Origin: Sulfolobales archaeon Acd1
GTDB taxonomy: Archaea > Thermoproteota > Thermoprotei_A > Sulfolobales > Sulfolobaceae
Length of the DNA stretch: 64,000 nucleotides
Assembly (NCBI GenBank): GCA_000389735.1
Contig: APJY01000005.1
Location: 1 to 64,000 of the forward strand
Direction of reading: 5' to 3'
In this document: piece after piece, positions 4,267 to 59,328 of the stretch
How the letters are laid out: every line of letters begins with the position of its first letter
How positions within the stretch are numbered: position 1 is the stretch's first letter
Notes under the pieces: model-generated
Told to the model about the DNA's origin: nothing
The model's input: the letters and a program-made list of their open reading frames with translations, nothing else
Database searches by the model: none
Position numbers and translations under genes: made by a program

Positions 4267-4476
4267 ATGAGAGAAGTCATTGTTATTGCTCATCCGTTAT
4301 ACGATACTGTAAAACTCCTTAGGTTTTTAGCAGATGCAAAAAGTAGGGGAATTAAGGTGAAAGTCATTTACCCGGAATCGCCTTGGCTTGACTCCGAGGA
4401 TTTAGAGAAAGCTTATATCGAATATCAGTCCTTCCGTAAGGTTACCAAAGTAATTGAAGATTTAGTAGAGGGATGA
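4267..4476 (+). CDS. Small hypothetical protein
   Basis: 69 aa. Predicted alternating strand-helix start (EVIVIAHPLYDTV, then GIKVKVIYP) that looks like half of a Rossmann-like unit. No family recognised. It may be a fragment of a larger protein interrupted by the neighbouring TnpB remnant, which starts 13 nt after its stop codon. Confidence 0.35.
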   Translation: MREVIVIAHPLYDTVKLLRFLADAKSRGIKVKVIYPESPWLDSEDLEKAYIEYQSFRKVTKVIEDLVEG

Positions 4477-4488
4477 TAGAGTTTATAG

Positions 4489-4860
4489 GAAGAGGAATTA
4501 GGGATTAAGATAACGAAAGTAGACGAATCCTATACCTCTAGGACTTGCTCCCTATGCGGGGAAGCCCATGAGGGTGGGTGTGTTAAACGTGGTTTGTTTA
4601 AGCGTCCCCGCGTAGGGAAAGTCATAAACGCGGACCTGAATGGGGCGGTAAATATTCTACATATCCCCGAGTCCCTAAGATCCGTGAGTAGGGGGCAACT
4701 CACGGTGAGGGATAGGTGTAACGGGCTGAAGACCCAGCCCGCGGTCTACCGCTGGACGAGCGGAGCGGGGTGGGAAAAACCCACCAGCTATGAAGTGATG
4801 AAAATGAAGGCGGTAAACCGCGAACCTATGACCCGTCCTAAGGGAACCCTCGCCCTTTAG
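4489..4860 (+). pseudogene. TnpB (IS200/IS605 family) C-terminal remnant
   Basis: The frame from 4489 to the TAG at 4858 encodes the end of a TnpB RNA-guided nuclease: KVDESYTSRTCSLCG, then INADLNGAVNIL, the zinc-ribbon and final RuvC segment. An in-frame TAG at 4486 cuts off everything upstream, and about three quarters of the protein is missing. The second zinc pair (usually C-P-x-C) reads RPRV, so two metal ligands are lost. The 3' part overlaps the guide-RNA end, as in intact elements. Clearly inactive as a nuclease. Confidence 0.85.
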
Positions 4861-4877
4861 GGCGGGGAGGAGGTCAG
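4848..4877 (+). ncRNA. TnpB element right end / guide-RNA terminal hairpin
   Basis: Hairpin cgccc-ttta-gggcg followed by gggaggaggtcag, directly over the stop codon of the TnpB remnant. It is the same terminal structure as at 3394, 57785, 58457 and 58609, and marks the end of the decayed element. Confidence 0.6.
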
Positions 4878-37022: not shown

Positions 37023-37458
37023 GCTCGCTTAACTCTATCTCGATTATACCCTTAAGCTCTGGCGACCCATAAACGTTAGAAAAGCTTCCTATTCGATCCA
37101 TAAACCATTAATTTAAAGCGACTCCTACCTAAAAGCGCTATTACACCACCGCATGTCAGAGCGAACGTGTGCTAGGATAGTTGAGGAGTCCCGCAAACTG
37201 GATGTGAAAACAGAAATCCTTGAAACTTACTACAGCACCGTAACCCTCCACCTTCCTTCGAGATAACTCCTCTAATTCTTTAAGCAACGGCAAGTACTCC
37301 TCGCTGAAGTAAGCTTTGCCAAAACCCACTTACCCCAGGGATCCTTAACCTTAAATTAAAACGTGGTCTTCAAAAACGTGGAACTTCACATTCCTGATCC
37401 CCCTTATCGGCTCTATTTCCTCTACTGGCAAAACAGAACCTCTTGACCTTAGCGTGTG
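37023..37458. other. Gap of 436 nt with decayed coding fragments
   Basis: Two short overlapping frames are visible: a plus-strand frame of 37 codons from ATG 37153 and a minus-strand frame of 57 codons from a GTG near 37330, encoding FGKAYFSEEYLPLLKELEEL and similar. Neither matches a family I know. This is the right border of the AT-rich glycosylation island, so gene debris is the most likely content. Confidence 0.35.
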
Positions 37459-57549: not shown

Positions 57550-57683
57550 AGGCTTGGTCTGTAGTACTTAGTTTTGTCCTTCTTTACTGCTTGCTACCTC
57601 GGTTTTTTGAATGAGTTAAGGGAACTCGTATGCCTCAAAAAGAACCGTTTTAAAAACCCATGCTTCAGATACTTCTCACAAAG

Positions 57684-57785
57684 ATTAGAATTAACTCCCA
57701 AGTTTAATGAGAAAAATTCTAACTTACAAAGGAAGGGGGTTAAGGCTCGAAAAGCCTCGCCCTTCCAGGGCGGGGAGGAAGTTAG
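57684..57785 (+). ncRNA. Orphan TnpB guide-RNA-like copy, left arm of an inverted repeat
   Basis: 102 bp identical to the inverse of 58457-58558 except at two positions. The 3' part has the 8-bp hairpin cctcgccc/gggcgggg followed by aggaagttag. In TnpB systems the bases after this are the guide, here beginning ttcttcaggtac. No tnpB is present within 50 kb to the left except the dead fragment at 4489. The 130 nt before this copy, after the DUF3834 stop, hold nothing recognisable. Confidence 0.6.
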
Positions 57786-57811
57786 TTCTTCAGGTACAAG
57801 AAATTATAAAG

Positions 57812-58237
57812 TCAAATCAATGAATTAATCTTAACGAGTAACCTAACGTTCTTATCAAAGCATATCGTTACTCTAGAAAAGAAGTCACCCCTACCTAAGA
57901 TTAGGCTGGGAAAAATCCCTCCGATTTCTCCGAAATCGGCTACTGCAACTGGAATTTCGAAATCCTCCTTAAGTTCCACAAAATGGAATTTTAGTTTGTG
58001 CCTTTTTGTATACAGATTCAGATTAGTTAATACTACCGTGTCCAAATAACGTTCTTCTAAGTTGTCAAAGCACTCGTTTAAAGTTTTCCTATTTATTAAA
58101 GAGAACCTACTACTGCTGTCTGGTAAAGCGTAAATTAGTAAGTTCCCTCCTATCTTGGGGCATTCCATCTCTGCTTTTAGTAAAGGTACCGCATAGCCTC
58201 TTAAGGTAATGAAGGGGATTTCTATGTAGTCAGTCAT
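57812..58237 (-). CDS. Retropepsin-like (clan AA) aspartic protease-type protein
   Basis: 141 aa. IPVAVADFGEIGG resembles the D-T-G active-site region with altered residues, followed by FPSLILGRGDFFSRVTICFDK, close to the L-L-G-R-x-x-F-F end typical of archaeal clan AA retropepsin-like proteins. ATG lies 1 nt after the stop of the small upstream gene, the usual pairing. If the motif is the active site, Asp is kept but the following Ser/Thr is replaced, so proteolysis is uncertain. Confidence 0.65.
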   Translation of the reverse strand: MTDYIEIPFITLRGYAVPLLKAEMECPKIGGNLLIYALPDSSSRFSLINRKTLNECFDNLEERYLDTVVLTNLNLYTKRHKLKFHFVELKEDFEIPVAVADFGEIGGIFPSLILGRGDFFSRVTICFDKNVRLLVKINSLI

Positions 58238-58238
58238 G

Positions 58239-58406
58239 CTAACTCTTCTCTGCTTCCACTACCGTTAAAATGTCGTATTGACTTCTTTTGTATCCCTTCT
58301 TCTTCATAATCTCTTCCACTTCTTCCCAAGAATTACCCTCAGCTACTATATTCCTATTTTCGTCTATTGCATAATATTTCCTAACTATCCTGATGGCTTC
58401 GGGCAT
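58239..58406 (-). CDS. Small protein paired with the retropepsin-like gene (DUF5678-like)
   Basis: 55 aa. RKYYAIDENRNIVAEGNSWEEVEEIMKKKGY is a strand-turn-strand-helix unit like the small 'never far from a retropepsin' proteins annotated as DUF5678 in archaea. Probably the antitoxin-like or substrate partner of the 141-aa protein; function unknown. ATG at 58406; the next gene starts 1 nt after its stop. Confidence 0.65.
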   Translation of the reverse strand: MPEAIRIVRKYYAIDENRNIVAEGNSWEEVEEIMKKKGYKRSQYDILTVVEAEKS

Positions 58407-58456
58407 ATGTTCTCAGATTAAATATGAACTTCTGAGGCTATAACTTTGCCTTGCTT

Positions 58457-58558
58457 CTGACTTCCTCCCCGCCCTGGAAGGGCGAGGCTTTTCGAGCCTT
58501 AACCCCCTTCCTTTGTAAGTTAGAATTTTTCTCATTAAACTTGGGAGTTTATTCTAAT
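58457..58558 (-). ncRNA. Orphan TnpB guide-RNA-like copy, right arm of the inverted repeat
   Basis: Same 102-bp sequence as 57684-57785, on the minus strand, differing at two positions. It would be transcribed toward the module, with its putative guide (aagcaaggcaaag...) directly upstream of the small gene's start region. Confidence 0.6.
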
Positions 58559-58587
58559 TCCCCACAGAGAGGAATAAGCAAGGAGCG

Positions 58588-58764
58588 TTAGGGCGGGGAG
58601 GAGGTCAGCAGTTCCTTAATACACCTCCTTACATTTCCTCTTAAATGACCTGGAAACCTCCTCAACACTGCTTCTAATGGGACGTGTGCAGATAATGAAC
58701 CGTTTGTAGCATCGAAAACAGCTACTAATATTGCGTTAAGTGTCTCAATACAGCATTTGACCAT
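58588..58764 (-). pseudogene. Small winged-helix-like gene truncated by a TnpB-type end
   Basis: 58 codons from ATG 58764. MVKCCIETLNAILVAVFDAT, then HVPLEAVLRRFPGHLRGNVRRCIKELL looks like a DNA-binding helix pair, but the frame runs straight into the reverse of the TnpB right-end hairpin (LTSSPP and stop). The C-terminal half is therefore lost. This dates one element end as an insertion into a once-functional gene. Confidence 0.55.
58590..58609 (+). repeat. Partial TnpB right-end motif
   Basis: agggcggggaggaggtcag is the last part of the guide-RNA hairpin seen at 3394 and 4877, here without its 5' half. It lies head-to-head with the complete minus copy 30 nt to the left, probably the scar of an older insertion. 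Confidence 0.55.
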
Positions 58765-58826
58765 TTTCTGCCAGAATCATTTTATTCTTAACAAGATTTA
58801 TGAGTTTTTGGTAGAAAGTGGTAATT

Positions 58827-59099
58827 ATGGAAAGCAAACAAGTAGAGAAGGAGGTAGTTTTCGTAAGCAAGGTCTCTGTAACTAAAAGTAAGAAAAACGG
58901 TAAGGAGTACGTCACGTATAGGATAACTATTCCTATGGATAAGGCTAAGGAATTGGAGTTAGACGACGGGGATTATCTTTTAATAAAGGCTAAAAAGGCC
59001 AAGTGGTATCACCTCTTAAATTGGGAGGAAATGAAGAACGTTTACAACATGTTACCGGAAGAAATAAAAAGAGAAGTCGATGAACTGAATCATAAATAA
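58827..59099 (+). CDS. AbrB/SpoVT-type swapped-hairpin protein
   Basis: 90 aa from ATG 58827 (GTG three codons upstream also open). VVFVSKVSVTKSKKNGKEYVTYRITIPMDKAKELELDDGDYLLIKAKK is the AbrB-type DNA-binding dimer fold; a helical tail follows. Likely a small DNA-binding regulator of the toxin-antitoxin class; no toxin gene lies directly next to it. The 228 nt after it show no gene. Confidence 0.7.
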   Translation: MESKQVEKEVVFVSKVSVTKSKKNGKEYVTYRITIPMDKAKELELDDGDYLLIKAKKAKWYHLLNWEEMKNVYNMLPEEIKREVDELNHK

Positions 59100-59328
59100 G
59101 GTTTCAACCTATCTCTTGTTAGAAATATTATAGCCTTAGGAAAATCGGTCTCCCTATTAAGGTCAGCTTTTTCGGATGAGTCTTCGCTCAGCCTCACGGG
59201 GTTCCCCACCTCTGCGGACGATTCGTTGTTTTAGGAGATAATTAGCGCCCGTATAGGCGGGGGAGGTCAAATCACGGAGAGCGAAGAACACTGCGCTGAC
59301 GTTCGTTAGCCACACGTCCTAAGAACGA

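Follow-up and report, generated by a model that had tools for sequence, protein, structure and literature searches.

Transposition by the TnpA of IS200/IS605 elements takes place on a single strand and requires a left end (LE) and a right end (RE) in order on that strand. Terminal-only elements of the IS605 type have been described in Haloquadratum walsbyi as palindrome-associated transposable elements (PATEs), for example the 52-bp form of ISHwa23 (PMC3119063). The solo-tnpB IS200/IS605 elements of S. islandicus have the TAM 5'-TTTAT-3' and a tnpB gene with an overlapping omega-RNA right end (PMC10640517), and the Sulfolobus MITEs SMN1 (320 bp) and SM3A (164 bp) are tied to ISC1733 and ISC1058 (PMC3718332).

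The locus described here lies in a 64,000-nt stretch (hereafter the window) at the start of contig APJY01000005.1 of Sulfolobales archaeon Acd1. A first-pass annotation of the window had reported two inverted 102-bp copies, identical at 100 positions and bracketing only a 55-aa and a 141-aa gene, and its coordinates and counts were reproduced: inverted repeat I1 consists of 57684-57785 and 58457-58558 (102 nt each, 671 nt apart), its arms are 100/102 identical when inverted (98% complementary) and the two mismatches fall at 57692 (T/A) and 57783 (T/C). A 102-nt inverted repeat cannot be explained by chance. The 55-aa and 141-aa genes are the only ORFs between the arms and, as annotated, neither tnpA nor tnpB lies there. 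The host genome (1.51 Mb, 93.5% complete) has three over-threshold TnpB matches, all outside the module, and a Y1 TnpA was not found in it; judged by its relatives and plasmid matches, this genome belongs with the Sulfolobaceae. The tail GGCGGGGAGGARGTYAG has five exact occurrences in the 64-kb window (0.08 expected, counting up to two mismatches). The whole arm-to-arm unit measures 875 bp and was seen once.

Composition of the inverted arms

Each arm has two layers: a plasmid motif block and, directly after the TTAC in which this block ends, a 58-bp terminal-only element of IS200/IS605 (TnpB) type. The annotation of the arm as one 102-nt feature thus holds for length and inversion and not for unity, since blastn of one arm divided it at positions 41-43; one part is a plasmid-motif block of 43-44 nt, the other a transposon-end unit of 58 nt, and each was found separately elsewhere (positions 1-43 match pYN01, G018:C10 and G000:C1; positions 41-102 match pHVE14). 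The features of the arms and their surroundings are as follows.

57560-57683, minus strand: left outer flank, a truncated DUF87-type gene of plasmid origin, represented by its 5' end and promoter region (match to pYN01, NC_012624; GC fall ~58% to ~38%).
57684-57727, plus strand: left arm outer half, plasmid motif block with core 57692-57706 TAACTCCCAAGTTTA, ending in the target TTAC at 57724-57727 (43 nt at 93% to pYN01, 91% to G018:C10).
57728-57785, plus strand: left arm inner half, 58-bp terminal-only (LE+RE) derivative of a TnpB-type IS200/IS605 element (55-59 bp unit at unrelated sites).
57786-57823, plus strand: 3' end of a plasmid marR gene (aligned with pNOB8, pYN01 and G012; 85-88% over 40 nt).
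57812-58237, minus strand: 141-aa retropepsin-like protein with DSS for DTG/DSG (DDI1-type retropepsin profile alignment, E 0.05).
58239-58406, minus strand: 55-aa protein with weak DUF5678 (PF18929) similarity (Pfam E 0.0037, below cut-off; plasmid homologues annotated DUF5678).
58407-58456, minus strand: conserved promoter-proximal block of the gene pair, AAAGTTATAGC..TATTTAA, intact to the arm border (nine homologous upstream regions aligned).
58457-58514, minus strand: right arm inner half, 58-bp terminal-only (LE+RE) element (55-59 bp unit comparison).
58515-58558, minus strand: right arm outer half, plasmid motif block with core 58536-58550 on the minus strand, ending in TTAC (motif and blastn matches).
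58559-58591, no strand: right outer flank, common to plasmid-like loci (matches in G018:C10 and G000:C1).
58592-58608, plus strand: additional TnpB-type right-end tail GGCGGGGAGGAGGTCAG, just outside the right arm (tail search).
58609-58764, minus strand: 3'-truncated plasmid gene (DNA-binding-like protein in G012 and G006; intact homologues of 93 aa).
58818-59099, plus strand: AbrB/MazE-like 93-aa gene, the last of the low-GC island (85-86% aa identity to G012 and G006; MazE/AbrB profile below cut-off).

The inner half of the arm, AAAGGAAGGGGGTTAAGGCTCGAAAAGCCTCGCCCTTCCAGGGCGGGGAGGAAGTCAG, directly follows TTAC and measures 58 bp. Units of 55-59 bp bounded by TTA(C/T) and GTCAG stand between unrelated flanks in the host genome and in G002, one is carried by the conjugative plasmid pHVE14, and TTTAC or TTTAT precedes the unit at many sites. 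At 1005893 in G002 a copy is inserted into sequence that in G024 runs on unbroken from TTAT into CATATATAAG; there is no target duplication, and this pair of genomes gave the one clean empty site in seven joined-flank tests. An 81% match in G011, considered as a second empty site, failed on alignment.

Both ends of the unit are common to a size series of 1271-1284 bp, 341-357 bp (TnpB-less) and 58 bp, and the 1271-bp copy in G011 holds the TnpB C-terminal domain in broken frames (PF07282, E 1.7e-9). Since the ends are those of larger TnpB-type elements, the inner half joins a left end to a right end; the earlier assignment of the arms to TnpB-related IS605-type ends is borne out, both LE and RE being common to full tnpB-type elements. 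As in PATEs, near-terminal palindromes are present without terminal inverted repeats, the LE and RE hairpins are those of the 1271-1284 bp tnpB-type elements, insertion is 3' of TTA(C/T) at all sites listed (without duplication at the G024 empty site), and 58 bp is too short for a transposase gene. A clean definition of the unit (TTAC-58 bp-GTCAG) and the size series (about 1.27 kb, about 0.35 kb, 58 bp) describe the decay of TnpB elements in Sulfolobaceae and help to avoid false calls of orphan guide RNAs.

Related elements were seen nearby and in other genomes. The TnpB-less elements of 341-357 bp (L147, L148 and L149 in G002; L150 and L151 in G008) occur as near-identical copies at many sites and comprise the left end, a TATA-like stretch, a guide-RNA-like body of ~200 nt and the right end; these, rather than the arms in the window, are candidates for stand-alone guide-RNA elements. 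At 4267-4877 the window has the remnant of a broken tnpB, with a right-end tail of its own; this remnant gave the best HgcC match among the loci scanned (40.4 bits, below gathering). Just outside the right arm, the segment 58559-58608 (ACAGAGAGGAATAAGCAAGGAGCGTTAG), common to G018 and G000:C1, is here joined to a right-end tail and could be a second, different truncated element.

The outer 44 nt of the arm are built around AAACTCCC(N)AGTTTA, a core with 85 exact matches in the 31 family genomes against 2 for the reversed control. The matches cluster on extrachromosomal or integrated plasmid-like segments (Sulfolobaceae plasmids), for example in contig 1 of G024, with another, equally spaced set in its contig 2, and in contig 2 of G028, and a scan of viral contigs returned 36 stretches, several of them multi-copy. 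The reverse complement of the core is probably the TAAACTGGGGAGTTTA motif known from conjugative plasmids of the pNOB8 type. CRISPR-like arrays with spacers holding the AAACTCCCCAGTTTA plasmid motif were observed at L087 (G000:C4, around 872-886; 14 repeat copies, period 58-62) and L086 (G003; 46 repeat copies), as expected of plasmid sequence. At two further places in the genome, the G000:C1:613141 region (L010/L061) and G000:C1 at ~380800 (L043), whose blocks resemble one another, the motif is followed at most ~40 nt on by TTAC and a shortened TnpB-type end.

In both pYN01 and G018 the small regulator-like gene that is truncated in the window ends in the motif block and the sequence beyond the motif differs between the two, which points to exchange of flanks at the motif. 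A role of the motif as a recombination site is presumed here from this exchange and from the general background on conjugative plasmids. Motif and 58-bp remnant may together form a recombination handle, the inverted copies of which would let Sulfolobales conjugative plasmids flip or swap small modules such as the DUF5678 and retropepsin-like pair; we consider this rather unlikely, and if it were true, remnants of TnpB elements would drive the shuffling of plasmid modules.

The DUF5678 and retropepsin-like gene pair

The gene pair had been annotated as a recurrent archaeal couple, and homologous pairs were indeed found in nine other Sulfolobaceae genomes and on plasmids. Full or nearly full pairs stand there without arms (G030, G020, G026, G028, G011, G014, G009, G002 and G024); the retropepsin-like gene is present on five S. 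islandicus plasmids, in four of the five with an annotated DUF5678 neighbour, and the pNOB8 homologue of the 55-aa protein is 81.5% identical. The arm halves, for their part, occur independently, so that at the level of sequence the proposal of arms jointly bracketing the pair as a recurrent unit fell away. The pair is ordinary plasmid cargo, independent of the arms, and is probably transcribed from its own conserved upstream region, with a predicted promoter, rather than from the arms. In pNOB8 (L093) a GNAT gene occupies the place of the retropepsin-like gene beside the DUF5678-type gene, which suggests partner exchange.

Both ORFs have been maintained by selection; pairwise dN is about 0.04-0.20 with dS above 1, values of which only the direction is meaningful as dS is saturated. 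Similarity to retropepsins is seen as weak profile matches (DDI1, E 0.05, with the catalytic motif aligned; Asp_protease_2, best E 0.11). The ten aligned homologues have DTG or DSG as the catalytic motif whereas the window copy has DSS, outside the D-[ST]-G pattern, and reads LGRGD where the homologues have GRED; with these changes the window copy may be inactive as a protease. An AlphaFold single-sequence model built without an alignment was uninformative (pLDDT 30). Pfam, NCBIfam, PADLOC and PHROGs assigned neither gene of the pair to a family with confidence, the phage records held no relative of the retropepsin-like protein, and nothing usable came from scans of the genome-contig and viral-contig collections for this protein, of the collection for the DUF5678 DNA pattern or of viral contigs for the 58-bp remnant.

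A probable plasmid-derived island

GC content falls from ~58% to ~36% between about 57550 and 59200, and homologous genes or flanks for the sequence within were found on pYN01, pNOB8, pHVE14 and other conjugative plasmids. The left flank (57560-57726) is 85% identical over 167 nt to pYN01 (NC_012624) 37278-37442, which comprises the start of the DUF87 gene and the motif. The right flank (58516-58591) is 94% identical to G018:C10:657315-657391 and 88% to G000:C1:381661-381737; further right, 58609-59089 is 87% identical to G012 and 58609-59108 is 84% identical to G006. The plasmid-like loci of G006 and G012 have an intact small regulator-like gene, truncated in the window, together with the AbrB/MazE-like gene. 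A chromosomal empty site was not found, as the two chromosomal neighbours are adjacent in no relative.

We hold with strong confidence the composition described above and its plasmid origin, and the island at about 57560-59110 is probably a chromosomal mosaic fossil of pieces of Sulfolobales conjugative plasmids. The explanation looks like an ordinary one, in which remnants of known kinds lie nested within a chromosomal island of plasmid origin, rather than a new RNA-guided or cargo-carrying element. It illustrates how unrelated mobile pieces, nested in one another, can produce a conspicuous gene pair that seems to be flanked by guide RNAs.

Proposed rearrangement history and alternative explanations

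At the left inner junction the marR homologues (pNOB8, pYN01 and G012) read CAATTAC followed by TTCTTCAG, and the window reads GTTAG followed by the same TTCTTCAG, as would be left by insertion after TTAC. The sequence left of the left-arm element is the flank made up of DUF87 and the motif, and not marR, and the orientation of marR relative to DUF87 is opposite to that in pYN01. A left junction at the plasmid marR TTAC, in flipped orientation, suggests an inversion between remnants. Such remnants would have lain on a plasmid in opposite orientation, one beside the motif and the other within the marR 3' end; their recombination would have inverted the block of marR, retropepsin-like and DUF5678 genes, the arms would then have been homogenised or duplicated, and the mosaic would have been captured in the chromosome, followed by decay. 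Block inversion is plausible, with chances a little short of even, and the inversion, the homogenisation and the order of events are inferred. If the inversion is right, it offers a concrete route for the rearrangement of plasmid modules. Against a single inversion, the outer flank of the right arm consists of the motif and a G018-like flank and not of the predicted 5' part of marR, so that a second event (gene conversion or duplication of an arm) is needed; the 98% identity of the arms likewise suggests gene conversion or duplication. At the right inner junction the homologues have no TTAC.

The arms differ from one another at 2 of 102 positions, yet the motif block has diverged by 7-9% from pYN01 and G018, and this would suit a simple history in which template switching duplicated one composite arm in inverted orientation, without block inversion. 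We regard that history as unlikely, since the left inner junction falls exactly at the marR TTAC in an insertion-like manner and both outer flanks are known contexts of the motif. It is improbable that the locus is an invertible cassette, in which the 102-bp repeats still recombine and flip the pair in living populations: long, nearly identical inverted repeats and the reversed order of marR and DUF87 relative to pYN01 are in keeping with it, but no recombinase gene lies nearby, the second orientation was not seen, and the upstream region of the pair is retained inside the arms.

The first-pass annotation had also called the arms orphan guide-RNA repeats that might be a pair of regulatory RNAs; in this rival reading the guides of two orphan TnpB guide RNAs would regulate or cut the edge of the module. 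The arms do end in the conserved right-end hairpin and tail, and both gave weak matches to HgcC (RF00062; E 0.07 and 0.29), but at 20.6 and 18.3 bits these fall far below the gathering score of 50. The right ends of TnpB-type elements match positions 29-63 only of the 63-nt query (~35 nt), and the region between the LE and RE hairpins, kept in the 341-357 bp and full copies, is missing from the arms; the 58-bp LE+RE element has thus kept the last ~35 nt of the omega-RNA/right-end region and lost the omega-RNA body. The supposed guides are flanking sequence (the 3' end of marR on the left, the DUF5678 upstream region on the right), and the fold of the 146-nt strand is hardly better than that of shuffled sequences (z -1.2). 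Taken together, this makes the guide-RNA reading very improbable. Rfam returned only sub-threshold HgcC, which cannot tell remnants from fuller copies.

The other suggestion of the first-pass annotation, a cargo-carrying non-autonomous transposon that IS605 TnpA would mobilise in trans, is scarcely credible: IS605-type ends do lie on both sides of the cargo and a Y1 TnpA is present in 11 of the 31 genomes searched, but each arm by itself contains both LE and RE and the arms face in opposite directions, leaving no LE-RE pair that spans the cargo on one strand, so that IS605 machinery should not carry the genes, and moreover the host genome gave no Y1 TnpA, the gene pair is found without arms in all the other genomes compared, and ends and cargo do not recur there as a unit, the arm-to-arm unit having been seen a single time.

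Comparison with known systems

The inner arm element is close to the PATEs of H. walsbyi, with which it has in common fused IS605-type ends, a lost core, near-terminal palindromes, a length of ~50-60 bp, and the lack of terminal inverted repeats and of target duplication (PMC3119063); unlike PATEs, it occurs in Sulfolobaceae, derives from a TnpB-type element that inserts after TTAC/TTAT, and is found in the window as two copies within composite inverted arms. It resembles the S. islandicus solo-tnpB elements in its insertion after an AT-rich tetra- or pentanucleotide, their TTTAT being close to the TTTAC/TTTAT seen here (PMC10640517), but has neither tnpB nor the omega-RNA body. Like the SMN1 and SM3A MITEs it is short and non-autonomous, with a transposase acting in trans (PMC3718332), although mobility in trans is putative for the 58-bp unit; it differs from these MITEs in size and in the linked IS elements, a separation drawn from their descriptions. 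With the conjugative plasmids pNOB8, pYN01 and pHVE14 the locus has in common the DUF5678 gene or the pair, marR, the DUF87 flank, the motif and (in pHVE14) the 58-bp element. The island differs from those plasmids in being a rearranged chromosomal fragment of ~1.5 kb without conjugation genes.
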